From a virus, in the IMG/VR virus record IMGVR_UViG_3300037342_000088, positions 1 to 33,357 of that record: DNA of 33,357 nt. One strand, 5' to 3'. Below are positions 1,939 to 28,906 of the stretch, piece by piece; position 1 is the first letter of the stretch, and the number at the start of each line of letters is the position of its first letter. The notes beneath the pieces were generated by a model that saw only the letters and a program-made list of their open reading frames with translations, ran no database searches and was not told the DNA's origin. The translations under genes and the position numbers were made by a program.

Positions 1939-2931
1939 TTAGTTTTGACCAAAATTAGTAAAGGGAGCAATAGCGTTGCCGATTAAAGCATTCCGGAGCG
2001 TTGCTAAGTTGTTCAGCGGGGCTCCCAATCCAATTCCTGTTGCCGTTCTGCCCCTTGGAATGTTTGTTACGGTCTGCGGTCTCATTCGAAGTGCTTCTTC
2101 CGTTTCAAAGGCTGTTCGTGCAAAAGTTCGTTGCGCTAAAGACATTTGATGCCAAACAATTTCTCTCCGATCCTGCAAATCTCCAAAGGTCTCTCCGGGA
2201 TTTCCACGTTCCATGAACCAAAAAGGAGGGCCTTCGTGGGGAGCATCCACTGGAACTACTTCTGGATCAGTAAGCGCGGTACCCCAAATAACCTCGATTG
2301 GCTCGGGTATTGGCGGATCAAAAAAACGCGCTGCTGGGTGAACAGGCCTTCTTCCTCCTTCCAGTCGTAGTGTTCGATTAGGAGCTTTCTTTCTGCTCGG
2401 TTTTACAAGCGCAAGCCACTTCGTCCGTTCTATATCAAAAAGTTGATTAACATCTCCTCGATCATCTCCCACAGACATCCAATTTCGTTTGATATTACCC
2501 TTCGCACAATCCACCATCATGCGTGTTGTTTCGAAGGCAAACTTTGAGTCACGAAGAAGCGTACTTACGTACATTGGCTTATCCAGAACGCGCAGGGGTT
2601 CTCTTGATAAAAGAGCTACAATCTGCAAGAAACCAGTTGTATCGTCCCAGATATGTCTTGGCAGTGGAAAATACAAGTTCGCAAATCCGCCTGATTGCGT
2701 GTAGTTTTCGCTAAAGAATCGAACCCATCCATTCTGGTCGAATTCATAAAGAGTCATCGAAAACTTATGCTTGTACAAGCGCATAAGGTTCTTTATTCGA
2801 TTTCTCAACGCGAATGTCGGCTTCCCGATGTACTTGATTCCTACTCCATTCACAAACACCCGCGTCGGATACTTTCCTGGAAACGCCTTCGGTGACGGAG
2901 ATGGAACGCAAATATTCGCTTCAGAATACAT
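1939..2931 (-). CDS. Hypothetical protein in amidoligase cluster
   Basis: 330 aa, family not recognised. The N-terminal third mixes basic and aromatic residues (FALRNRIKNLMRLYKHKF). The middle holds a proline-rich stretch around residues 195-240, and the C-terminus is Asn/Ala rich. There is no signal peptide or membrane segment. The ATG overlaps the stop of the upstream zinc-binding gene (TAATG), and the stop abuts the amidoligase ATG. Its position between cysteine-rich and amidoligase genes suggests a dedicated partner or substrate-handling protein, but this is inference from context only. Confidence 0.8.
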   Translation of the reverse strand: MYSEANICVPSPSPKAFPGKYPTRVFVNGVGIKYIGKPTFALRNRIKNLMRLYKHKFSMTLYEFDQNGWVRFFSENYTQSGGFANLYFPLPRHIWDDTTGFLQIVALLSREPLRVLDKPMYVSTLLRDSKFAFETTRMMVDCAKGNIKRNWMSVGDDRGDVNQLFDIERTKWLALVKPSRKKAPNRTLRLEGGRRPVHPAARFFDPPIPEPIEVIWGTALTDPEVVPVDAPHEGPPFWFMERGNPGETFGDLQDRREIVWHQMSLAQRTFARTAFETEEALRMRPQTVTNIPRGRTATGIGLGAPLNNLATLRNALIGNAIAPFTNFGQN

Positions 2932-3479
2932 TATTTTCCTTTATTAGCAGCCGCACGCTCAAGTTCAAGTTCCTCGTCGACGAGATCAACCATCAAAGTG
3001 GGGTTCCAAATGTCCCACACTTCTAGACAGTCTTTGCCACAAAGCGGAATATCTAAATATTCTGTCGCAGAGCGCCTTTTCTGTATTTCGTCGAGTGGTT
3101 CATTACAAACTATGCAAATTCCTTGCTCTTTCGCTTTGTCAAGAGCGCGCATAGCTGTATGAAAACATGTTTTTAAATGCTCTCCGCGCTCTGCTTCTGT
3201 TCGAGCGAGTAAATCGCATACGCGACATGTTACAGTATCCTTACCGTCTGTCAAAACAAAAAACTTTCGTGTAAAAGGCCTTCGATCAAACAGCGGAGGT
3301 ACAACGAAACGCGCATCCAAAGGCCCTGTAAACACGCGATTATCCACGTGCATAAAGGTCTGCTTGACTTCCTTCTTCGGCTCTAAACGAACCAAACGCT
3401 CTAGACGATGCGAAGTTGAATAAACCTTCGCATGAAGGAGGGCTATCGGCACTCTTAACGGGGTGTACTTAGCAGCCAC
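2931..3479 (-). CDS. Putative zinc-binding protein
   Basis: 182 aa from a GTG start with GGTGA just upstream. Two metal-binding patches are visible: CRVC followed by HLKTCFH (C2H2-like, about residues 86-108), and CIVC followed by CGKDC (about residues 122-152). The first 80 residues are basic and may bind nucleic acid or virion protein. The C-terminus is acidic and probably helical (DEELELERAAANKGK). It overlaps the upstream gene by 25 nt and the downstream gene by one base, so it belongs to the amidoligase operon. No enzymatic motif is seen and its exact function is unknown. Confidence 0.8.
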   Translation of the reverse strand: MAAKYTPLRVPIALLHAKVYSTSHRLERLVRLEPKKEVKQTFMHVDNRVFTGPLDARFVVPPLFDRRPFTRKFFVLTDGKDTVTCRVCDLLARTEAERGEHLKTCFHTAMRALDKAKEQGICIVCNEPLDEIQKRRSATEYLDIPLCGKDCLEVWDIWNPTLMVDLVDEELELERAAANKGK

Positions 3480-3859
3480 AAAGTCACCATATTGCCTGAG
3501 TTGGGATTTCTAACAGTCTTAAGCTTCTCAGCGCCAAGCTTAACCAACAAGGCTTCAATTTCAGGCTGCTTGGCCGTTGCAAACAAAGCATAAGGCGCGT
3601 TAAATTCCTCGCGGAGTTCCAAGATGATTTTTGCAAGATATTGGCGCTCGGTCCATTTCTCTGGCTTATTAGCTAAAAGCAATCCGCAAAAAACGTCAAA
3701 AGCGCAGCAGTCGGGAAAGCCCTCCTGCTCAAAGGAGAACAACCTTTCGTCAAAAGGATCGTAATAATCCTTGTCCGTATCCACGTTCAGAGATCGCAAT
3801 ACCGCATGAAGACGGTCTGTTGTCCAAGACAGCTTTGGTAAAATCACTTTCTTAAACAT
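3455..3859 (-). CDS. Small protein with weak GNAT acetyltransferase resemblance
   Basis: 134 aa. The frame stays open to 3958, but the ATG at 3859 is preceded by AGGAG at ideal spacing, so I take it as the start (MFKKVILPKL). The C-terminal part (EALLVKLGAEKLKTVRNPNSG, then MVTLWLL) resembles the last strand-helix-strand of GNAT-like proteins found in phages. The acetyl-CoA P-loop is not obvious, so this is a weak call. It is the first gene of the amidoligase operon and sits directly behind a repeat arm at 3870-3893. Confidence 0.75.
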   Translation of the reverse strand: MFKKVILPKLSWTTDRLHAVLRSLNVDTDKDYYDPFDERLFSFEQEGFPDCCAFDVFCGLLLANKPEKWTERQYLAKIILELREEFNAPYALFATAKQPEIEALLVKLGAEKLKTVRNPNSGNMVTLWLLSTPR

Positions 3860-3869
3860 AACACACTCC

Positions 3870-3960
3870 TTGACGAGGGGTTTGGGCCTGGGGAGGAGAC
3901 TCACTTTTTTCACTTTACTACCGCGCTCAATGGCGGCTGCTAAGCGCACCAGACCCAAAC
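3870..3960 (-). repeat. Degenerate start-associated inverted-repeat element
   Basis: The arm at 3870-3893 (GACGAGGGGTTTGGGCCTGG on plus) ends next to the AGGAG of the 3859 start. A weaker partner at 3949-3960 (CCAGACCCAAAC) pairs with its inner 12 bases with one mismatch, and the outer part has decayed. This copy has three G in the variable centre, where most copies have four. Confidence 0.8.
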
Positions 3961-4257
3961 TAATCCTGTTGGGGGCTTCATCAAGCTCCTACAGCTTGAG
4001 TGTATCCCCCGGTGGCAGTACAGACCTTTTTAATTAGGGAGTAGACAGGATTGGCCGATCCTGTTTCTGTAGTGTAGTTACTTGGGGCACGTTTGCGCCG
4101 CTTTCGCCTCAACTCCCGCACCCCCGACAGTTGTCTGGGAGTACTACAACAGCAGAACCGGCAGCCACGTGCTACCTGTAGTGCGGTTGTGCTCCGCGTA
4201 GGGTTATGTGCATTCAGCAGCCCTCGCTGCCGTTATGCAACCCTGCGGGGACTCGTT
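3961..4257. other. Gene-free, strongly structured segment
   Basis: No credible ORF in about 297 nt. Hairpins visible by eye: GGGGG 3971-3975 with CCCCC 4006-4010 enclosing TCAAGCT/AGCTTGA (3981-3999); TACAGA near 4019 with TCTGTA enclosing ACAGGAT/ATCCTGT; and a three-tier hairpin near 4200-4252 (AGGGTT, TGCAT, GCAGC, each with its complement). One extra pair in the last hairpin is G-T on plus, which would be G-U if plus-strand RNA. It lies upstream of the leftward gene at 3859, so it may be a leader or a separate RNA. Confidence 0.5.
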
Positions 4258-4503
4258 TTAAGTTGTGATCTCAATTTTGGTGCCTTCTGGAAGAAGAATG
4301 TACGTCCCTTTTCCTTCCAAGCCTGCTTGATTCGAAGTGCCTAAGTCTCCATCGTTGTTGAACCACAAGAATTCGCCTGGCTGTAAAGTAGCCACAAACA
4401 GCCCGCTACCGTTGTCGCGCTCTCCAACGCGACCTACAGGAATAAACCTCGGGGGAATTCCCTGTGGTTTTTGCTGTTCAACGCGTATAAGTTTTGCTTT
4501 CAT
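4258..4503 (-). CDS. Small hypothetical protein, paralogue of the 7815-8078 gene
   Basis: 81 aa. ATG at 4503 has AAGGAGA five bases upstream, chosen over an in-frame ATG that overlaps that Shine-Dalgarno. The C-terminal half (GEFLWFNNDGD, then GTYILLPEGTKIEITT) matches the pattern in the 7815-8078 protein (FLWVSSDGQ, then GQYTRLPAGVKIVFET), so the two are probably paralogues. It looks like a small beta-rich domain. It stands alone between two structured non-coding segments. Function not recognised. Confidence 0.8.
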   Translation of the reverse strand: MKAKLIRVEQQKPQGIPPRFIPVGRVGERDNGSGLFVATLQPGEFLWFNNDGDLGTSNQAGLEGKGTYILLPEGTKIEITT

Positions 4504-4797
4504 CTTTGTCTCCTTAAACAAATTGAAGGGGGCCTCGCAGAAGCGTGTCCATAGAGTTCGCCCTGGAAAACCGTCGAAAAGCGCTGTAGCAGCATGTCAT
4601 ATAGGGTTAAGCTTTCAGCATATAAGAATCGAAATTCCAGCTGCTTATTTGCTTAAATCCCAAACAGAGACTTTACTCGCTCAATCCTATTGTTTCCCGA
4701 ACGTAAGACCTGAGCCCACTAGTTTCCTAATGTTTAACCCCAACAGGCACTAACTCAAGTCTACTCTAGCGTGTCACTCTGTTGCCCCCTCCAAACT
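4504..4797. other. Gene-free structured leader of the 4258-4503 gene
   Basis: No ORF in about 294 nt apart from the Shine-Dalgarno at its left end. Nested pairings are visible: AGGGGGC 4527-4533 with GCCCCCT 4784-4790; AGAGT 4553-4557 with ACTCT 4776-4780; GGGTTAAGC 4604-4612 with GCTTAA 4651-4656 plus CCC 4659-4661, enclosing ATAAG/CTTAT and AAT/ATT; and AGAC-TGAG 4706-4714 with CTCA-GTCT 4754-4762. Together they make a multibranch fold closed near the segment ends. Probably a 5' leader RNA (inference). Confidence 0.55.
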
Positions 4798-5109
4798 TTA
4801 TAAATCGTAACTAGCACCGTACCCAGGAAAAGGTCCACGCGTAGAGAATCCTGTAAACGTTGGGGATTTCTCTTCTTCCGCGTCTTCCTTCGCATCTGCT
4901 CTTAACAGTGTAAGGCACGTCTTTTCCCCGCAATAGGGAAACTTATCTGCGGAGACAATCACTACCGGACGCCCGCAAGCGCAAATAAACTGAGCCGGAA
5001 CAAAACCCCGGCCCGCGCAATCTCCACACGTAACAAACCGCCTGCGGTGCGGAGAGTAGACCTGCCCCAACAGACAGAAGGGGCACTTCTTGGCTTTTAC
5101 TTCTTCCAC
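4798..5109 (-). CDS. Cysteine-rich zinc-ribbon / DnaJ-like protein
   Basis: About 103 aa from the GTG at 5109 (GGTG five bases upstream); a TTG at 5130 would add seven residues but has no Shine-Dalgarno. Cysteine pairs: CPFC, CGDCAGRGF (CxxCxGxG type, as in DnaJ zinc fingers), CACG and YCGEKTC. The C-terminus is acidic then Gly/Pro rich. It overlaps the end of the second amidoligase gene, implying coupling. Likely a structural zinc protein or adaptor for the amidoligase (inference). Confidence 0.78.
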   Translation of the reverse strand: MEEVKAKKCPFCLLGQVYSPHRRRFVTCGDCAGRGFVPAQFICACGRPVVIVSADKFPYCGEKTCLTLLRADAKEDAEEEKSPTFTGFSTRGPFPGYGASYDL

Positions 5110-6389
5110 GCATTCACCAAATAGCCCCAAGAGGCGCGAAGATCATCCGAGTGCCTCATCCACGTGCTCTCGTTGATCTTCCAGTTCTTCTCGACGTTCT
5201 CATACTCCGGAAACACTGCTTCAACGCCGCCCTCAACAATGGTCTGGAAAGGCTTACCTGCTAGCGAGCCATCTCCTTGCATAAGTGTCTCAAAGACGTA
5301 CTTATGCTTGGTCACATACTCGCGCGCACCCTTAACATCGCAGAAATTGATGATTTCCTGCACACGCTCAGGCTCGATATCAAGGTCTTTCGTTAATCCA
5401 TTCCATCCAACTTTCAACCCGCTCCGCACCAGATTCAACACGAGATGTGCCAATGCTGGTGTTGCAAGCCAAGCATTAGAAAGAACACGATATTCGAGCC
5501 CATGCGCCGGAGTACGATACTCTCCGGCACGCCCATAATATTGCCTACGAATGGGCGAATCAACTGACGCGAACATAGCAACAGCTGGAATAGCCGCGAT
5601 TATGTCGCAGGCCTTCACGCACTCCTCAACACGTCCCTTCTCTCTCGGCATATTGAAGTGAACATGCCCTCCCGCGAAACGCATATTGAATCCGCGCGCA
5701 TCATTCGGGAGTTGCGGCGCATCTCCGTAGACATTCAAAGAGGGCATACAACCCAGCGCTACGTCTTCATCACTACCACTCTGCATCGTGACCTGCGGTA
5801 CTGAGAAAGTATTCTTGATTGTCAACTTCGCAGTCCGGTCAAATGTACGAGCCTTGTTCAACACAGCCGTCAAACCATCGCGAAGGTAGTCAATCAGATA
5901 TCCATGGCAGCTCACCTGATGAATATAGCACTCTGCGGCAAATCCATCACGATAAGCGTATGAGTTATCTCTATTTATTCTCTTCGCCTCCTCCTGCGTT
6001 AGAAGAAACTTAAACGCGGGGAGCAAAGAAGGTTTCACACCCCGCACAACGAAAATCTCGGGGTCGCTTCCTGTTTCCGAGTTGACTCTGGCCGAATGCG
6101 CACTAAGCCGCTGAATAACGGACATATTCTCCACTTCCTCAAGCTGGACTTCCTGAGGTAGATCAAGTTCGCTATATCCACCATTTTTTGGGCTTCGTAC
6201 CAAGGCAATTCCGCCTGGAAAATTTCTTATGAATCCATTTTTGTACTCATACAAAGCACCCTCAGGGCACGCCGAAATCCTATTAGTCCAAAAGGACTTT
6301 GGCTTTGGAACAGAAAAGACCTGCCCCTCTTGCAACGATCTCCAGTCAACCAACTGTTTAGCCACACTATCCTCCCAAGTACTCGTCAT
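5097..6389 (-). CDS. PhiEco32-like COOH-NH2 ligase-type 2 (amidoligase), copy 2
   Basis: 430 aa. ATG at 6389 (MTSTWEDSV) is chosen because GGAG lies seven bases upstream; an upstream in-frame ATG at 6404 has no such site. Family motifs: GSDPEIFVV near residue 110, an acidic AAECYIHQ segment near 150, RFAGGHVHFNMPRE near 240, and RRQYYGRAGEYRTP then GLEYRVLSNAWLATP near 280-310. These are the same landmarks as the 496-1938 protein, but overall sequences are diverged and this copy has a different N-terminal extension. It should catalyse ATP-dependent amide formation. The first gene of its operon is a 52-aa zinc ribbon. Confidence 0.9.
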   Translation of the reverse strand: MTSTWEDSVAKQLVDWRSLQEGQVFSVPKPKSFWTNRISACPEGALYEYKNGFIRNFPGGIALVRSPKNGGYSELDLPQEVQLEEVENMSVIQRLSAHSARVNSETGSDPEIFVVRGVKPSLLPAFKFLLTQEEAKRINRDNSYAYRDGFAAECYIHQVSCHGYLIDYLRDGLTAVLNKARTFDRTAKLTIKNTFSVPQVTMQSGSDEDVALGCMPSLNVYGDAPQLPNDARGFNMRFAGGHVHFNMPREKGRVEECVKACDIIAAIPAVAMFASVDSPIRRQYYGRAGEYRTPAHGLEYRVLSNAWLATPALAHLVLNLVRSGLKVGWNGLTKDLDIEPERVQEIINFCDVKGAREYVTKHKYVFETLMQGDGSLAGKPFQTIVEGGVEAVFPEYENVEKNWKINESTWMRHSDDLRASWGYLVNAWKK

Positions 6390-13283: not shown

Positions 13284-14336
13284 CTACTGGAGAAGTGTGC
13301 AACCAGGGCTGCTTAGTTCTTTGAGAACTTCGAGCGCCAAGTTTGCAGAAAGAATTAGGAATTTGTCAGCAGCAGCATAAGCAGCAGCAGCAGCATTAGC
13401 AGCAGCATAAGCAGCAGCAGCAGCATCAGCATCAGCATTAGCAGCATCAGCAGCACGAGCAGCATTAGCAGCATCAGCACGAGCAGCAGCAGCACGAGCA
13501 GCACGAGCAGTAGCAGCACGAGCAGCACGAGCAGTAGCAGCACAAGCACGAGCAGCATCAGCAGCACAAGCACGAGCAGCAGCAGCACGAGCACGAGCAT
13601 CAGCAGCACGAGCACGAGCATCAGCAGCACGAGCAGCATCAGCAGCAACAGCAGCACGAGCAGCAGCAGCACGAGCAGCAGCAGCACGAGCAGCATTAGC
13701 AGCAGCATAAGCAGCAGCATAAGCAGCAGCAGCAGCAGCAGCAGCATCAGCAGCACGAGCAGCAGCATAAGCAGCAGCAGCAGCATTAGCAGCAGCATCA
13801 GGAGCAGCACGAGCAGCAGCAGCAGCAGCAGCAGCATCAGCAGCACGAGCAGCAGCATTAGCAGCAGCATAAGCAGCAGCATAAGCAGCAGCAGCAGCAT
13901 CAGCAGCATCAGCAGCATCAGCAGCATCACCTTCTTCTTCGCAATTGTCCGCTGCCAAAAGACACGCAGAATTGTTAGGAAAGATTTCACGAAACAGCGT
14001 GGGAATCAAAACACGAATAGTTTTCTCTGAAATCCTTTGTGCAAACTCAACGCCATCTACTACGCCTCGGCTGCCCAGCTGCGCAATTCCTAAATTGCGC
14101 AATCCTTTCGCACGCGCTAAAGGCGAACTCCATGGAGAATCGTTAAGTGCTATCTTAAAGCTGCGTATTGATTGTGTTACACACTTAGGGTCATCGCCGT
14201 GAGGCAAGCCCAGTGTCTGACAGATAGCGGCTTCAATGCAAACTTGATCTGTTGAGTTTCCAAGACCGTATGATAAGCCTTTGGAAAGTATTGAGTCGAA
14301 CTTCTCAACGTTGAAATCACTCAAATTGAATGTCAT
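13284..14336 (-). CDS. Alanine-repeat protein with conserved N-terminal domain
   Basis: 350 aa; ATG at 14336 with AAGGAGA directly after the repeat arm. Residues 1-135 are a folded domain (STDQVCIEAAICQTLGLPHG, SFKIALNDSPWSSP, ARAKGLRNLGIAQLGS) of a kind I associate with proteins carrying alanine-rich tails in phages and bacteria, without an assigned function. Residues about 136-325 are almost pure Ala interrupted by D, Y, N or R every three to four positions, predicting a very long single helix. A short ordinary C-terminus follows (LALEVLKELSSPGC). The tail may be a structural rod or spacer. Its DNA is a trinucleotide repeat tract prone to length change. Confidence 0.85.
   Translation of the reverse strand: MTFNLSDFNVEKFDSILSKGLSYGLGNSTDQVCIEAAICQTLGLPHGDDPKCVTQSIRSFKIALNDSPWSSPLARAKGLRNLGIAQLGSRGVVDGVEFAQRISEKTIRVLIPTLFREIFPNNSACLLAADNCEEEGDAADAADAADAAAAAYAAAYAAANAAARAADAAAAAAAARAAPDAAANAAAAAYAAARAADAAAAAAAAYAAAYAAANAARAAAARAAAARAAVAADAARAADARARAADARARAAAARACAADAARACAATARAARAATARAARAAAARADAANAARAADAANADADAAAAAYAAANAAAAAYAAADKFLILSANLALEVLKELSSPGCTLLQ
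13366..13925. repeat. 560-bp imperfect CAG-type trinucleotide repeat
   Basis: Runs of GCA/AGC units with scattered GAGCA, TTAGCA and TAAGCA variants encode the Ala tail. The opposite strand is open as poly-Leu/Met, which is only a shadow. Confidence 0.9.
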
Positions 14337-18828: not shown

Positions 18829-19119
18829 ATGGAAGATTTTTTAGAACGGTTCCTCGACTGGAGAGGCATTGAAACGCCCTGTAAACGTTGTAGTGGTGCC
18901 GGAAGCTACGGGTATGGCAATACGGCTACTTGGCATTATGATATAGGTGGTAGTATGATTACTTGGGGAATCTGTGATTTGTGTTGGGGAAGCGGTGACC
19001 ATACAAGACCTTGGCCAAATCTTAAGGTTCTTGAAGATGAACTAGGCGCACTCCGTAAGTTTAAAAATAAAGTTGAAAAACGTGAGTCAAAAGAGGCCGA
19101 TCCTACGTCTAATATATAG
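18829..19119 (+). CDS. DnaJ-like zinc-finger protein
   Basis: 96 aa; ATG with TAGGAT upstream. CKRCSGAGSYGYG and CDLCWGSGD are two CxxCxGxG repeats, as in the DnaJ central domain, forming one zinc site. Charged helical C-terminus. Phage proteins of this type may act as small adaptors or chaperone-like factors; role not established. Confidence 0.8.
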   Translation: MEDFLERFLDWRGIETPCKRCSGAGSYGYGNTATWHYDIGGSMITWGICDLCWGSGDHTRPWPNLKVLEDELGALRKFKNKVEKRESKEADPTSNI

Positions 19120-20010: not shown

Positions 20011-20265
20011 ATGGTTGACAGCTGTCCTTATTGCTCTTTGTTGCCCTGCCCTAAATGCGGCGAACAACCGGAACTGCTCGAATATAAGACTACGAAGACT
20101 TTAACCGACCCTCTTCGTACAATAAAGATGGGTATGAAATTAAAGGATGTATCTTGCGGTAGGTCTTGGGGCGTTGTGTTAAGTGTAGACGAAGGGCCTT
20201 GTGTTATTAGAGCCCGACAGCTTCTTGTTGAAGCTTGGAACCAAGAATACCGACTGGGTGAATAG
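20011..20265 (+). CDS. Lar-like zinc-ribbon protein
   Basis: 84 aa, ATG with TAGGTG upstream. CPYCSLLPCPKCGEQPELL, then VSCGRSWG and VEAWNQEYR match the layout of Lar-type restriction-alleviation proteins (CPxCG, C-x, A-x-x-AWN). Lar proteins reduce host type I restriction; transfer of that function here is inferred. Stop overlaps the terminase GTG. Confidence 0.65.
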   Translation: MVDSCPYCSLLPCPKCGEQPELLEYKTTKTLTDPLRTIKMGMKLKDVSCGRSWGVVLSVDEGPCVIRARQLLVEAWNQEYRLGE

Positions 20266-21791
20266 TGGCCGATCTCGATGTGCTTGTACAAAAGTTAGGT
20301 GATTACTCAACTGAAGACGCCCTAACTGTACTTGATGCGCTTGAGGCCGACCGCAAGGATAAGCATTTCGCGAAGTATTGGGCTACTGATCCCGATCCTA
20401 AGTGTATGGAGTTCTTCGATGCTATCGAAGCTGACTTCAAGAAGTTTACTAAGGATATTAAGATTTACGCCCTCTTAGGGGGCAATCGGTCAAGCAAGAC
20501 GGAAAGAGGCGCTTTCCTCGCAGTAGCTTGGCTCATGGGCAAAGAATACTTCAGAGATGAGCCCTCGTGGCGTTATGTGAAGGATTTACCGATTCCAGAG
20601 CACGGAGTCAACATTTGGGCTATCGGCCTTGACTTCTCGGTTATTCAAGATGTAATCTGGCGTGAGAAACTGCGCGTCGGCCATCGGCATCCCGGCCTCC
20701 TACCAAAGTCTCCGAGCCCCTTGATCACAAGGGTGTCAGATTCTTCCTTCCAAGTTGAAGTTAACGTCAATGGAAGGCGCTCCACACTGACATGCAAGAG
20801 CGCGGATTCGGGTCGGGAAAAGATGCAGTCAGCTTCGGTTGACCTTGTTTGGATTGACGAAGAGCCAGAAGAGGAAGTTTTTGACGAGCTATACCAAAGA
20901 ACAGCGGATTGTGCAGGTAAGATACTTATCACACTTACGCCGCTTACAGACATTGGCTCTGGCGTCAAAACTCCCTGGGTCTTCAATCTACACAAGGATT
21001 TTGTCGCAGGCCGTAAAGATGTCCTTTTTATCTCCCTCTCGACTTTAGACAATCCATTTATCCCAGAAGACGAAAAAGTAAAGCTAAAAGAGAAGTGGGC
21101 AGGCCATCCTGAGGAAAAAGCAAGACTCTACGGAGCATTCATTCAGCGCTCAGGCCTCGTGTATCCGCAGTGGGACTCGTCGATTCACATGGTTAAGCCA
21201 TTCACTATACCAGAAGAATGGCGTAGAATAGTCTCGATTGACCCTGCTGCAACGGGTGTTACTGCTGCGGTCTGGGCAGCAATTAAGCCCTCCGGCGATA
21301 TTGTAATCTACAGGACGTACTACGAGTCCAACCACATTGTTTCTGATCATGCGAAGAATATGCTGATTAAGAATGGTGGGGATAAAATAGACATCTGGCT
21401 TATTGATCCCTTCTGGGGAAGCGCGAGGAACGCGGAGAATCACAAACAAGGCTTTCAGCTGTACAAAGAAGCAGGTATACCTGTTCGGTTGGCTCCGAGA
21501 GCTGAAGATTTTGGACGCGACACCCTAGCAGAATACCTTGCTGCAAGCCTCGATAAGACAGCCCGCCACGCGAAGATTTGGTTCTTCAATAATCTCAGAG
21601 ACTTTCAGAACGAAATTGAGATGTATGTTTGGGACGTGGTCTCTAAAGGCCCATCAAAGGGTATGAATCGTGGTAAGCCGCTAAAGCGCAGCGATCATTT
21701 AATTAACGCGATCCAATATTTAGTTTCACTAAAGCCGAGGCCGAAAACAACTTATATTGCAAGCGCAGCGGGGAACAGTTCGTATACTTAA
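20265..21791 (+). CDS. terL: Terminase large subunit
   Basis: 508 aa from GTG at 20265 (TAGTG overlap). ATPase part: Walker A GGNRSSKTERG near residue 72, Walker B VDLVWIDEEPEEEVFDEL near 192, and a coupling TLTPL motif near 224. Nuclease part: RIVSIDPAATGVTAAVW near 325 and WLIDPFWG near 375, plus a late acidic site (KRSDHLINAIQYL). Length is normal. It drives DNA packaging into the prohead. Followed at once by a 30-aa coupled ORF. Confidence 0.93.
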   Translation: MADLDVLVQKLGDYSTEDALTVLDALEADRKDKHFAKYWATDPDPKCMEFFDAIEADFKKFTKDIKIYALLGGNRSSKTERGAFLAVAWLMGKEYFRDEPSWRYVKDLPIPEHGVNIWAIGLDFSVIQDVIWREKLRVGHRHPGLLPKSPSPLITRVSDSSFQVEVNVNGRRSTLTCKSADSGREKMQSASVDLVWIDEEPEEEVFDELYQRTADCAGKILITLTPLTDIGSGVKTPWVFNLHKDFVAGRKDVLFISLSTLDNPFIPEDEKVKLKEKWAGHPEEKARLYGAFIQRSGLVYPQWDSSIHMVKPFTIPEEWRRIVSIDPAATGVTAAVWAAIKPSGDIVIYRTYYESNHIVSDHAKNMLIKNGGDKIDIWLIDPFWGSARNAENHKQGFQLYKEAGIPVRLAPRAEDFGRDTLAEYLAASLDKTARHAKIWFFNNLRDFQNEIEMYVWDVVSKGPSKGMNRGKPLKRSDHLINAIQYLVSLKPRPKTTYIASAAGNSSYT

Positions 21792-24023: not shown

Positions 24024-26087
24024 ATGGATTTTGGCGCAACAATGCTTTATGGAGGGCCGAAAGAAAGAGCCCTACGGTTCCTTCGTAGAGGGGTTGACTA
24101 CAGACGCCAATTCGATTCTCGGCGGGCAATTTTCTACAGGCAATATATAGGGCAACGGGACGCCCAGAAGTTTCCTGACAATTCCACAAATAGGGCCAAC
24201 ACCTTTGTTCCTTACCCTCTTAGCAACGTAGAAACTATTGTATCGCGCGTAGATGATGCTTTCTTCTCTTTCGCACCTTGGTTTGAAGTTGATGGAGTTA
24301 CCCAGCAGGACGACCATGCCGCAGAATCAATGCAGCTAATTTTAGATAAAAAGCTTCTTCTTGCTAAATTTAAGGCAGCTTTCGAGTCTCTAGTACGTAA
24401 TATCGCGATCTACGGTTTTGGAGCGCTTAAGGTAGATTGGAATTGGGACTTTAAAACGCTTACCAAGCCAACAGCGCAATACGCAACTGGGCAAGACGGC
24501 CAGCCAATTCTTGATCCAAATACGGGGCAGCCTATTCTACTTGGTTATAAGCCGCAGACAACCCAAGTTCCGATGGCATGCCCACTTATCACTGCTATTG
24601 ATATTTATGATATTGTTGTTGACCCTGACGGAGATATTTCTGCTTGCTTAACAGAACGTACGCTTGGAGACATTAAACGTTCTTGCCAAGCATACAAGGC
24701 AGCAACCGGACAAGATTATTTCTATCCTACGGCTCTTACTGAATTGGAACAATATATAGCTGGTGCATGCCCTGAGAATCCAGAATCTGTGTTAGTTCGC
24801 TACGCAGAAGTCTGGGATAATCAAGATCAGAGCTGCACGCTTGTAACCTTTGGTGAAGATAAAGATGCAATCGCGTGGAAAGACCTTAGAGCCTCCTATC
24901 GCGCGACTGCCTACTCTCCTTACAAACGGAAGCTCTACGATGGTCCGCCCATCTTACTTTGGAGCGGCCCAAACCAGTTTGATCACAAGCGAAATCCTAT
25001 TCTCTATACTTCGTACATTAAGCTCCCCAACGAGCTCTACGGAATAGGCGCTATTGAGGTTATTACCGACCTTACTGAAGCCATGAATAAATTTGTCTGT
25101 ATGACAACTGACAACTGGAATATGGCTATCAACAGGCGCTATGCTTATGACACAAACGCTGATATTGATCACGAACAGCTAAATCAAGCAAATGTACCAG
25201 GCGGCAAAGTCGGCGTTAACGGAAACCCAAGTGAAGTTCTAGTCCCCCTACCCTTCTTTACGCCGAACCAAGGTGACTACGCGATTCTTGACCTTTACAA
25301 AGGCATGATCGAGATGGGTTCTGGTATTAGCGATTTTTACGGCAAGTCTGTCGGCTCTCCTACAGGCAATCGTACCGCAACTGGCATCAATTCCGTCATT
25401 AATGAGAGTAACTACCGCTTTAAGCTCTTCATTCGGAATCTCGAGCTCGACATTCTGCAGCCAATGCTGGCAATGTGCTCTTCGATGATTCAGCAGTATA
25501 TGTCGGATAAAGAAGAAGTCCTGATCACCAAGACGCAGACTCCGCTTATCCCTAAGTGGCAGATGATTGATCCTGAAGAAATCATTGGCAACTACGAATT
25601 TAACCTTACCGCAGCAAACTACGCGACCAACAAAACGGTCCGTCAGCGTAACCTCATGACCTTTGCCCAGATTGCGATGAATTCGCCTTACTGGAATCAA
25701 GGGGAAGGCCTCCGAGAGATTGCTAAGGTGCTTGAAATTCGTAACGCTAACGACATGATTAAGTCTGATCAGCAAGTCCAGCAGGAACAGCAAGCTGCTC
25801 AAGCTGCCCAACAGCAAGAGATGTTCATCGAGAAGGTTCTTGACACTGAATCTGCGATGGCGGTTGCTGAACAAGGCAACAAGTTCAAAGCGCAGCAAGC
25901 CTCAGCTCGAAGTAGTGGCAAAAACCCTCATAAGCCGGTAGGCACACCAAAACGCCCTGAAGGCAGACCGGCTGGCGCGAACCACAATCCAAGCTTAGCG
26001 GGCGCTAGCGATGAATCAGCTGTAAGAGAATTTTCGCAAGCAATGGGCGGGAACGCGACAGGACTGACGGGGTTACATGGCGCATAA
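24024..26087 (+). CDS. Portal protein
   Basis: 687 aa. Portal features: an N-terminal helical crown-proximal part (RRQFDSRRAIFYRQYIGQRD), the central NELYGIGAIEVITDLTEAMN and ISDFYGKSVGSPTGNRTATG motifs of the portal clip/stem, and a Gln/Ala-rich C-terminal tail. Size is like N4/phiEco32-type podovirus portals. It forms the dodecameric channel used for packaging and tail attachment. Lies between decoration genes and the scaffold-like gene. Confidence 0.9.
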   Translation: MDFGATMLYGGPKERALRFLRRGVDYRRQFDSRRAIFYRQYIGQRDAQKFPDNSTNRANTFVPYPLSNVETIVSRVDDAFFSFAPWFEVDGVTQQDDHAAESMQLILDKKLLLAKFKAAFESLVRNIAIYGFGALKVDWNWDFKTLTKPTAQYATGQDGQPILDPNTGQPILLGYKPQTTQVPMACPLITAIDIYDIVVDPDGDISACLTERTLGDIKRSCQAYKAATGQDYFYPTALTELEQYIAGACPENPESVLVRYAEVWDNQDQSCTLVTFGEDKDAIAWKDLRASYRATAYSPYKRKLYDGPPILLWSGPNQFDHKRNPILYTSYIKLPNELYGIGAIEVITDLTEAMNKFVCMTTDNWNMAINRRYAYDTNADIDHEQLNQANVPGGKVGVNGNPSEVLVPLPFFTPNQGDYAILDLYKGMIEMGSGISDFYGKSVGSPTGNRTATGINSVINESNYRFKLFIRNLELDILQPMLAMCSSMIQQYMSDKEEVLITKTQTPLIPKWQMIDPEEIIGNYEFNLTAANYATNKTVRQRNLMTFAQIAMNSPYWNQGEGLREIAKVLEIRNANDMIKSDQQVQQEQQAAQAAQQQEMFIEKVLDTESAMAVAEQGNKFKAQQASARSSGKNPHKPVGTPKRPEGRPAGANHNPSLAGASDESAVREFSQAMGGNATGLTGLHGA

Positions 26088-26524: not shown

Positions 26525-27358
26525 ATGACATTTGATTTGAATGATGCTCCAGGTGGCGATCTGAGTCTAGACGACATCTTTGGAGAGAATAAGCCATCGA
26601 CAACGGTGGATACAGTAAATGAACCCCAAACGCCGCCTGTGACAACACCTGCGGAGCCTGTTATAAAGACGAAGACGGGCACTGTTTATAAGTCGATTGG
26701 GGATGCCGTCGAGGGCATTGAGCATAAGGACGCGCTCATTGCTCAGCTACGTGAACAAGTCAGGCAGAACACGGGGAAAGACCCGCTTTCTGTCCAGAGA
26801 CCAAATCCACAGGCCCCACTCAACTACACGGAAGATTCGGATAAATATTTCGAAGACGCTTCTGCTGCGGTTGCGAAGAACGACCGCAAGGGGTATATGG
26901 AAATTCAGCGTAAGATGATTTGGGACAGTCTGGGGCCGTTGGCTCCTACCATTACTGCCTTGAGTCGTGCAAATGCTGAGAGGGTAGTTTCAGAACAGAT
27001 TCCCGATTTTAAGGGTTTTTTGGCAAGCGAGCAGTACACTGCTGTTTCTCAAGATGCCCCCTTGCTGGCCGATGCAATTCGGTCTGCTGAAGCGAATCCA
27101 GCGGCTGCTCAGCAGTTGCCGGAGCTTTATCGGGTAGCTTATCTGGCTAGTCTTGGTCGTCGGGTTCCGGAGCTTATTCAATCGGCACGTAATGAAAACA
27201 CGCCGATTCCACCCCGGCCTACGGTTCAATCAGTTTCACTTGCTCCGCCTTCTTCCAATGGCACTCCTGTTGTGCAGCCTTCTCTAGATACCGCTGCAGG
27301 TAGGAAAGCTACTGTTGAGAAGTACGAAGCGGGTGGGTTGCTGAACCAACGATGGTAA
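26525..27358 (+). CDS. Putative capsid scaffolding protein
   Basis: 277 aa, ATG with AAGGAAA upstream. Acidic, disordered N-terminus (DLNDAPGGDLSLDDIFGE), a Pro/Thr linker, then helical regions (HKDALIAQLREQVRQNTG). Placed between portal and major capsid as scaffolds are. No protease motif seen. Call rests on position and composition. Confidence 0.6.
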   Translation: MTFDLNDAPGGDLSLDDIFGENKPSTTVDTVNEPQTPPVTTPAEPVIKTKTGTVYKSIGDAVEGIEHKDALIAQLREQVRQNTGKDPLSVQRPNPQAPLNYTEDSDKYFEDASAAVAKNDRKGYMEIQRKMIWDSLGPLAPTITALSRANAERVVSEQIPDFKGFLASEQYTAVSQDAPLLADAIRSAEANPAAAQQLPELYRVAYLASLGRRVPELIQSARNENTPIPPRPTVQSVSLAPPSSNGTPVVQPSLDTAAGRKATVEKYEAGGLLNQRW

Positions 27359-27374
27359 TTTAAAAAGGTACATC

Positions 27375-28906
27375 ATGTTCAAAAACTTTCTTAATCTCGC
27401 ATTTGGTTTGCTCGGCCTTGGTGCCGATGTAGTCACGGTCACAACCGGAACCGCAGGAAATGCAGGCAACGTTGCTGCTGATCTGCAGACCTACTTCTCT
27501 GCGAAACTTTTGGAAGTTGCTGAGCTTAATACGATTCTCGATGGATGTCAAATTTGGTCGAGATTAAATTTCTTCTAAATACCTTGGAAACCCTGAGTCA
27601 TAGAAGGCGTATTCTACGTCTAATATAAGACAGGGCAATCAGAGGCAAGCAGGGTAACCGTGCAGCCGCAGAGACTAACCGAAGAAACACGACGTTGTAC
27701 TCGTGAAGTGATAGTCCAGACCTGGGAGTAATTCCAGAAAGTCTACAGTTCGGCGAAAAAGCGCCGATCCCATCGAATTCGTCCCGCACGATTCAGTTCG
27801 TTCGCGAGGAAAAGTTCACAACTTCTACAACTCCTACTCAGCTTACTGAGGGTCTTCCTCCGGACGCTGTTGGGCTAACTTTGAACCAGTTCGACGCGGT
27901 GGTCGAGCAGTACGGATTTTTGACGCGAATCAGCGATTTGGCTGAGTTGACGGCCAAGCATCCCGTAGTCCAAAGGACTATGCACTTGCTTTCACTACAG
28001 GCAGCCGAAACCTACGATTAAATATAACTGGTCGTAGTAAAATCTAGCTAAATCGGTGAACATCTCTTTAGAGACAATACCGAGGAAAGATTCTGTGAAA
28101 GAACCTAAAAAGAAATAATTAAGGTTGCTTTAGAGTTTGCGGCACTTGAAAATACTGTGAATCCTGCTTTACGAGAAGCACTGTATTGGAAAGCAAAAGC
28201 ACTTACTCAACGCGGAAAATCCGTAGAGACTAATACGCTAGACCCGGTAACTCCGGTGAAGATAGAGCCCGATCTCATAGGCGACTATGAGAGTGCTCCG
28301 TTGGTGACAACGGAAGCCTAAACACAGATACAGCTTATTTTTAATGTTTTGAACGCCTCCACGCAGACTTACTTCCCGAATGGGCGTACTGCGATTACGG
28401 GTTTGCTCCCTACCGATCTGCCCAGCTACAATGACCTTACCGCCATTGAAGCTCAGCTCCAGACTTTGGGCGCGCGCGGTATGGACGGTGGCGATTACGT
28501 TGCAGTTATGGCACCCAACGCTTATAACGCGTTGCTGCGTGACCCCGACTGGAAGGCATCGCACCAGCTTAACTCCCCAGACAAAATCTGGCGGGGCGAG
28601 GTTGATTCCCTTGCTGGTATCCGCGTTGTGCGTTCGAACGCTCCGGGTTTCCTCCCGAACACGTCGAACACCACGACTGGAACTTCGACCAAGGTCTACT
28701 CCAGCTTCATGATCGCGCGTTACGCTTATCAGATCAGCGACTTGCAGAACCTTCGGGTTTATGTGGTTGCTCCTGGCGGGCAGACCGATCCTCTGCAGCA
28801 GTCTCGTAAGTTGGGCTGGAAGTTCGCCTTTAAGTCCATCATCACGAATAACAACTGGCTGACCTTGTATCTTACCTCCGGGTTGGATTCTCTGGCCCAC
28901 GCCTAA
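27375..28906 (+). CDS. N4-gp56 family major capsid protein, split by two group I introns
   Basis: Coding sequence is 27375-27542 + 27746-28018 + 28331-28906, giving 338 aa if both introns splice as modelled. Family signatures: ADLQTYFSAKLLEVAELNTI, KAPIPSNSSRTIQFVREEK, GFLTRISDLAELTAKHPVV, SLQAAETYD, then GDYVAVMAPNAYNALLRDP and VVAPGGQTDPLQQSRKLGW. Unspliced, exon 1 would end after 11 intron-encoded residues, so splicing is required for a capsid. Exon joins restore LD-QFGEKAP and ETYD-QLIFN, matching normal family spacing. It forms the icosahedral shell. Confidence 0.9.
27543..27745 (+). ncRNA. Group I intron 1 in the major capsid gene
   Basis: About 203 nt. P1: exon TCTCGAT pairs with GTCGAGA in the intron, ending in the canonical U-G pair at the 5' site (after 27542). 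Conserved core: GGAAACCCTGAG and GGGCAATC (P3-P5 region), GCAGAGACTA 27668-27677 pairing as P7 with ATAGTCC 27711-27717, P8 CACGA/TCGTG (27688-27705) and P9 CTGGGA/TTCCAG with a GTAA loop. No endonuclease ORF. The 3' end is 27745 or 27748. Confidence 0.88.
28019..28330 (+). ncRNA. Group I intron 2 in the major capsid gene
   Basis: About 312 nt. P1: exon CTACGAT with GTCGTAG at 28031-28037. P4 TCGGT/ACCGA (28053-28083) and P5 TCTC/GAGA resemble the T4 td class. P7 half AGAGACTA at 28225-28232 and GATAGAGCC near 28261; P8 CCGG/CCGG; P9 CTCATAG/CTATGAG (28274-28291) with a GCGA tetraloop; a further CCGTT/AACGG hairpin. The 3' end is 28330 or 28333. An in-phase open frame covers the second half, ending at 28321. 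Confidence 0.87.

Follow-up and report, generated by a model that had tools for sequence, protein, structure and literature searches.

Two group I introns, most likely ending in A, in the major capsid gene of a phage fragment

A phage capsid gene that is interrupted twice raises the question of what the insertions are and how a normal capsid protein would be made across them. Such a gene is found in a phage fragment of 33,357 nt (IMG/VR record IMGVR_UViG_3300037342_000088), the whole of which is referred to here as the window. Terminase (window 20265–21791), portal (24024–26087), and uncharacterised (26525–27358) genes precede the gene for the major capsid protein, which was recognized by a match to phrog_1357 (E 7e-33). 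Annotated phage records contain only distant relatives of this capsid protein, at ~30% identity or less, and no relative of the window phage was found among genome contigs, so that no host was identified. A second assembly (IMGVR 3300037168_000177), which may come from the same population, has 1 mismatch in 9,729 bases against the window region and carries the same two-intron gene. This agreement makes it unlikely that the insertions are an assembly accident. Elsewhere in the window, a gene on the minus strand (13284–14336) encodes a product with a long alanine-rich Ala/Asp/Arg/Tyr repeat in GCN-type codons, and matches to isrG and mir-6132 are due to this repeat gene.

To find the joints, their positions were shifted along the gene, and each resulting protein was scored by its alignment to relatives. 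A single best solution was obtained for each insertion, with GAT|CAG at both. Read against uninterrupted relatives, the spliced frame consists of three plus-strand exons: exon 1 (27375–27542, residues 1–56) ends in CTCGAT, exon 2 (27746–28018, residues 57–147) runs from CAG to GAT, and exon 3 (28331–28906, residues 148–338 and the stop codon) starts with CAG. Between them, on the same strand, lie intron 1 at site 56 (27543–27745, 203 nt) and intron 2 at site 147 (28019–28330, 312 nt), and by the comparative junctions the last base of each is an A. The uninterrupted relatives read straight through both sites and fix the joints as LD-QFG at site 56 and YD-QLIF at site 147. Gln57 is invariant among these relatives, while residue 148 is Gln, Ile, Leu, or Thr and is absent in none. 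An earlier note on this DNA had placed two introns with a shared GAT|CAG target within 27543–28330, and both the coordinates and the target are confirmed by the sliding of the joints and by the uninterrupted relatives.

Joined, the three exons give an open frame of 338 codons. The spliced product shares 94% protein identity with that of the uninterrupted gene of L003 (IMGVR 3300016728_000364; related loci are given by such L numbers), and the DNA identity is 784/1017 (77%). All capsid exons are under purifying selection (dN 0.04–0.14, dS >1), which alone is no proof of splicing, since the introns may postdate the divergence of the exons.

The nature of the insertions was addressed with the Rfam group I model, a search that the earlier note had called for. 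Both insertions matched Intron_gpI (RF00028), intron 1 with 33.2 bits (E 5.6e-5) and intron 2 with 34.2 bits (E 2.8e-5), and both scores are under the curated cut-off of 50. Scores of this size would be expected to some extent if the insertions were unrelated to group I introns, as in the case of translational bypass segments. We regard such an origin as highly improbable, as each insertion has a full conserved core with covariation and a U·G at the 5' site, relatives carry LAGLIDADG-type genes, and insertions at the same sites range in size from 158 to 612 nt. The core of each intron includes P1, P3–P9, and P10 and is backed by compensatory changes across relatives. P1 comprises 7 bp in both introns, with the U·G at the splice site, and the P1 and P10 pairing at the joints was equalled by 24 of 20,000 shuffles for intron 1 and by 2 of 20,000 for intron 2.

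These helices were drawn by hand and counted on alignments of related introns from which the endonuclease genes had been cut out. The site-56 lineage (six introns) has 99.2% of cells paired and 15 pairs changed on both sides; the corresponding values for the site-147 lineage (seven introns) are 91.2% and 25. In the site-147 lineage, none of 500 shuffles equals the observed pairing and covariation on any of the five measures; in the site-56 lineage this is true of four measures, and the fifth is reached by one shuffle. Slid controls had 33–43% of cells paired, a somewhat flattering comparison given the small alignment sets and structures derived from one member sequence. Covariation is present in P1, P3, P5, P8, P9, and P9.1. 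By pair counts, both introns possess the conserved core P3–P8 with the guanosine-binding site in P7, and the two belong to different ribozyme lineages. Anatomy and comparison thus support the presence of two group I introns in one major capsid gene, as the earlier note had proposed, and predicted group I splicing at both sites is well supported on the same grounds.

In intron 1, all elements of which are on the plus strand, the internal guide (27554–27562) pairs through GUCGAG with exon CUCGAU, forming the U·G at the splice site, and through UUG with the CAG of exon 2. The latter pairing, P10, has only 3 bp, one of them a wobble. P5 (27591–27635) contains a loop insert of ~35 nt that has no counterpart in the aligned relatives, and P6 (27644–27667) bears a short GUAA-capped hairpin at the position of the LAGLIDADG-type gene of relatives. 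P7, P3', P8, and P7' occupy 27671–27717, with a G-C guanosine-binding pair, and are followed by P9 (27722–27737), which has a GUAA loop and compensatory changes in four of six pairs. Over 44 bases, the loop-5 region (27584–27627) shares 80% identity (E 4.7e-5) with window 19073–19116, the end of a gene at 18829–19119; this likeness is a copied patch or chance.

The guide of intron 2 (28028–28037, plus strand, as are the elements below) pairs through GUCGUAG with exon CUACGAU and through CUG with the CAG of exon 3 (P10). P7, P3', P8, and P7' (28226–28270) again include a G-C guanosine-binding pair, adjoined in P7 by an A·C mismatch that is also found in L033. P9, with a GCGA loop, and P9.1, with a GUGA loop (28274–28313), keep 13 of 13 pairs, 11 of them with compensatory changes. 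The P1 pairing, P7, P8, and GNRA-capped P9 stems that had been reported from the sequence are therefore seen in both introns. The likeness of one intron to T4 td, reported alongside them, does not hold. P7.1/P7.2 are missing from both introns, where P7 is separated from P3' by only 5 nt (intron 2) or 3 nt (intron 1), and the td-type class (IA2) was dropped for this reason. For the tRNA-Leu type (IC3), the one consistent feature is that intron 1 is compact.

A guanosine at the 3' end is regarded as invariable in group I introns, since it fills the guanosine site during the second step of splicing. A specialist would be surprised by the apparent terminal A. At the comparative junctions of the introns tabulated for this capsid family, A takes the place of the canonical G in six introns: at site 56 in the window, at site 147 in the window, L026, L027, and L108, and at site 283 in L028. 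G is possible at every other resolved junction. CAG directly follows all six A-ending introns, and a terminal G would result if the joint lay 3 bases downstream of A|CAG. In the site-147 lineage, the A is located right after P9.0, at a base that is G in the sister introns of sites 22 and 150. At site 56, the related introns of L024, L026, L040, and L090 have a terminal G ahead of the same CAG, indicating that the A there is particular to the window. The guanosine-binding pair is a normal G-C in both lineages counted, and a compensating A-U was looked for in both and is absent.

A conventional terminal guanosine would be regained if the G of CAG were the 3' splice site. One Gln codon would then be lost per intron, giving a capsid protein with LD-FG and YD-LIF. 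This placement agrees with the occupation of the guanosine site by the terminal G in step two (PMC3984707, PMC10020454) and with the position of a G always exactly one codon downstream of the A-ending junctions. The best argument for a one-codon shift is that A-ending introns occur only where the 3' exon starts with CAG, at 3/3 such sites vs 0/~16 others, a post hoc count over introns that are not independent within a lineage. Such a shift is nevertheless rather unlikely in our view, as it would delete the invariant Gln57 and residue 148, which is deleted in no uninterrupted relative. Moreover, P10 and P9.0 set the joint at A|CAG, where P10 has 3–6 bp in the six A-ending introns, compared with 1–2 bp after a 3-base shift. 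Also considered were 3' exons starting with TTC and ATA, with both introns ending in G, which are countered by the uninterrupted relatives and by P10.

The comparative A|CAG joint is most likely the actual 3' splice site, and P9.0 together with P10 would position the reaction at the terminal A. For the broader proposition that natural group I introns splice at a terminal A with a normal G-C guanosine-binding pair, we see the chances as evenly balanced. The literature covered yielded no description of a terminal A in a natural group I intron, which is weak evidence, most subscription papers being outside that coverage.

The window holds no intact endonuclease, as the earlier note had rightly stated. 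Its further suggestion that double introns without endonucleases form an unusual arrangement is misleading, because L026 has ORFs at the same two sites and intron 2 has an endonuclease remnant. The L026 introns, of 570 and 605 nt, carry LAGLIDADG-type ORFs of 166 and 173 aa, both of which match PHROG 5046. The site-147 ORF of L026 reaches the Pfam LAGLIDADG_1 cut-off and its site-56 ORF has no Pfam match; the site-56 ORF of L024 matches LAGLIDADG_3 only below the cut-off. In intron 2, BLASTP revealed a remnant of a LAGLIDADG homing endonuclease gene (28095–28321, plus strand), in which both ends of the gene are retained on either side of a ~300-nt deletion. The tail frame of the remnant extends to the TAA used in relatives and is 56% identical over 71 aa to the endonuclease of L027; taken by itself, the loop part shares 53% identity with that of L026 (E 5e-8). 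A frameshift reading of the open frame in intron 2 was dropped, as the frame aligned as this remnant.

A site-56 intron of 158 nt (L090:791–948) has P1, P3–P9, and P10 and no endonuclease gene, and is very compact for a full core. It contains a hairpin equivalent to that of intron 1, in which, however, the loop is GAAA and one stem pair differs, suggesting that the endonuclease-free state of intron 1 may be old and not a recent deletion. By sequence comparison, intron 2 is shown to have lost its endonuclease and intron 1 to have none. Both introns would belong to families with LAGLIDADG-type endonuclease genes that invaded the capsid gene at many positions. With the gene absent from intron 1 and left as a deleted remnant in intron 2, passive inheritance or mobilisation in trans would follow.

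Endonuclease loss may also mark the onset of decay, with poor or no splicing and a capsid gene that is impaired or only partly expressed. The absent or deleted endonuclease, the replacement of the terminal G by A, the A·C mismatch in P7 of intron 2, and a P10 in intron 1 that is weaker than in relatives are all compatible with decay. However, the terminal A is common to site-147 introns with intact endonuclease ORFs (L026, L027, L108), the mismatch recurs in L033, and three of three capsid exons are intact. The second assembly carries the same two-intron gene as well, though maybe from the same population. Altogether, we judge decay to be improbable.

The reading that we favor, and hold to be probable, is that of two group I introns spliced GAT-CAG at both sites to give a normal capsid, most likely with a terminal A. 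The usual two-step guanosine reaction would remove both introns from the pre-mRNA and restore the normal capsid protein; splicing itself, its efficiency, and the exact 3' splice site are what we infer from the insertion sites, the ribozyme anatomy, and the comparative junctions. Counting against this reading are the Rfam scores under the curated threshold, the terminal A uncompensated at a normal G-C guanosine-binding pair, the 3-bp P10 with its wobble in intron 1, and the A·C mismatch in P7 of intron 2. If it is correct, A-ending introns with an intact guanosine site would allow the role of the terminal guanosine to be probed in wild-type RNAs rather than in mutants.

Neither the terminal A of both introns nor the intron-rich capsid family figured in the earlier note. 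In IMG/VR, the family has introns at ~19 positions, with 34 introns tabulated, three of them mini-introns, and is an intron hot spot. The capsid gene of L028 (~2852–6364) has four introns, at sites 20, 111, 126, and 283, and that of L109 has at least four. In two rows of the intron table, both for L096, the 5' joint is off by one base and the P1 values are to be disregarded. The family presents a graded series of intron reduction, with 557–612 nt in introns with an ORF and 158–312 nt in those without, and core-less mini-introns of 34–38 nt as a possible last stage. At site 126 in L023, L028, and L030, the 5' exon apparently ends in C rather than U; this C would form a C-G pair with the guide, and the introns have a P10 of 5–6 bp and a terminal G. 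Downstream of the capsid gene of L008 (1741–1777), an abiF RNA match reaches 38.1 bits, against a gathering score of 37.

The mini-introns are found at site 56 in L007 (4972–5006, 35 nt) and L044 (3463–3500, 38 nt) and at site 133 in L103 (about 2828–2861, 34 nt). They break the capsid frame and have a P1 of 6–7 bp, a P10 of 5–6 bp, and a terminal G, but they lack a ribozyme core. Between L007 and L044, P1 and P10 show covariation, and the combined pairing was equalled by 15, 21, and 0 of 20,000 shuffles in L007, L044, and L103, respectively. No further site-56 mini-introns emerged from a pattern scan, which recovered just these two. Each mini-intron is followed, 50–57 nt downstream, by a full group I intron that contains an endonuclease ORF and whose core might splice both.

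Capsid introns (PMC3706429) and phage genes with several introns (PMC11878797) have been described before, and a double intron by itself is therefore not new. Like the window, the mycobacteriophage LittleE has a probable group I intron in its major capsid gene; this intron is preceded by U, ends in G, and has a LAGLIDADG-like ORF, its splicing was shown by RT-PCR, and it is absent from related phages (PMC3706429). Tuc2009 is cited in the same work for a group I intron in a phage capsid gene. LittleE is an unrelated phage with one intron, a terminal G, and the ORF on the opposite strand (PMC3706429), whereas two introns without an intact ORF, both with an apparent terminal A, are present in the window. 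As in the window gene, several group I introns (two or three) share an essential gene in Twort and the Bastillevirinae, and endonuclease ORFs are carried by some of these introns but not by others (PMC11878797 and works cited there). Those introns reside in DNA polymerase, terminase, and reductase genes, in contrast to the ~19 positions in a capsid family observed here. The Phialophora introns of 63–75 nt, reduced to P1, P7, and P10, are a precedent only for the mini-introns of relatives, as they are found in fungal rRNA and the window introns have full cores (PMC3160393). Finally, the introns of the window resemble T4-type introns that home in trans, which have no ORF or a defunct one (reviewed in PMC3984707).
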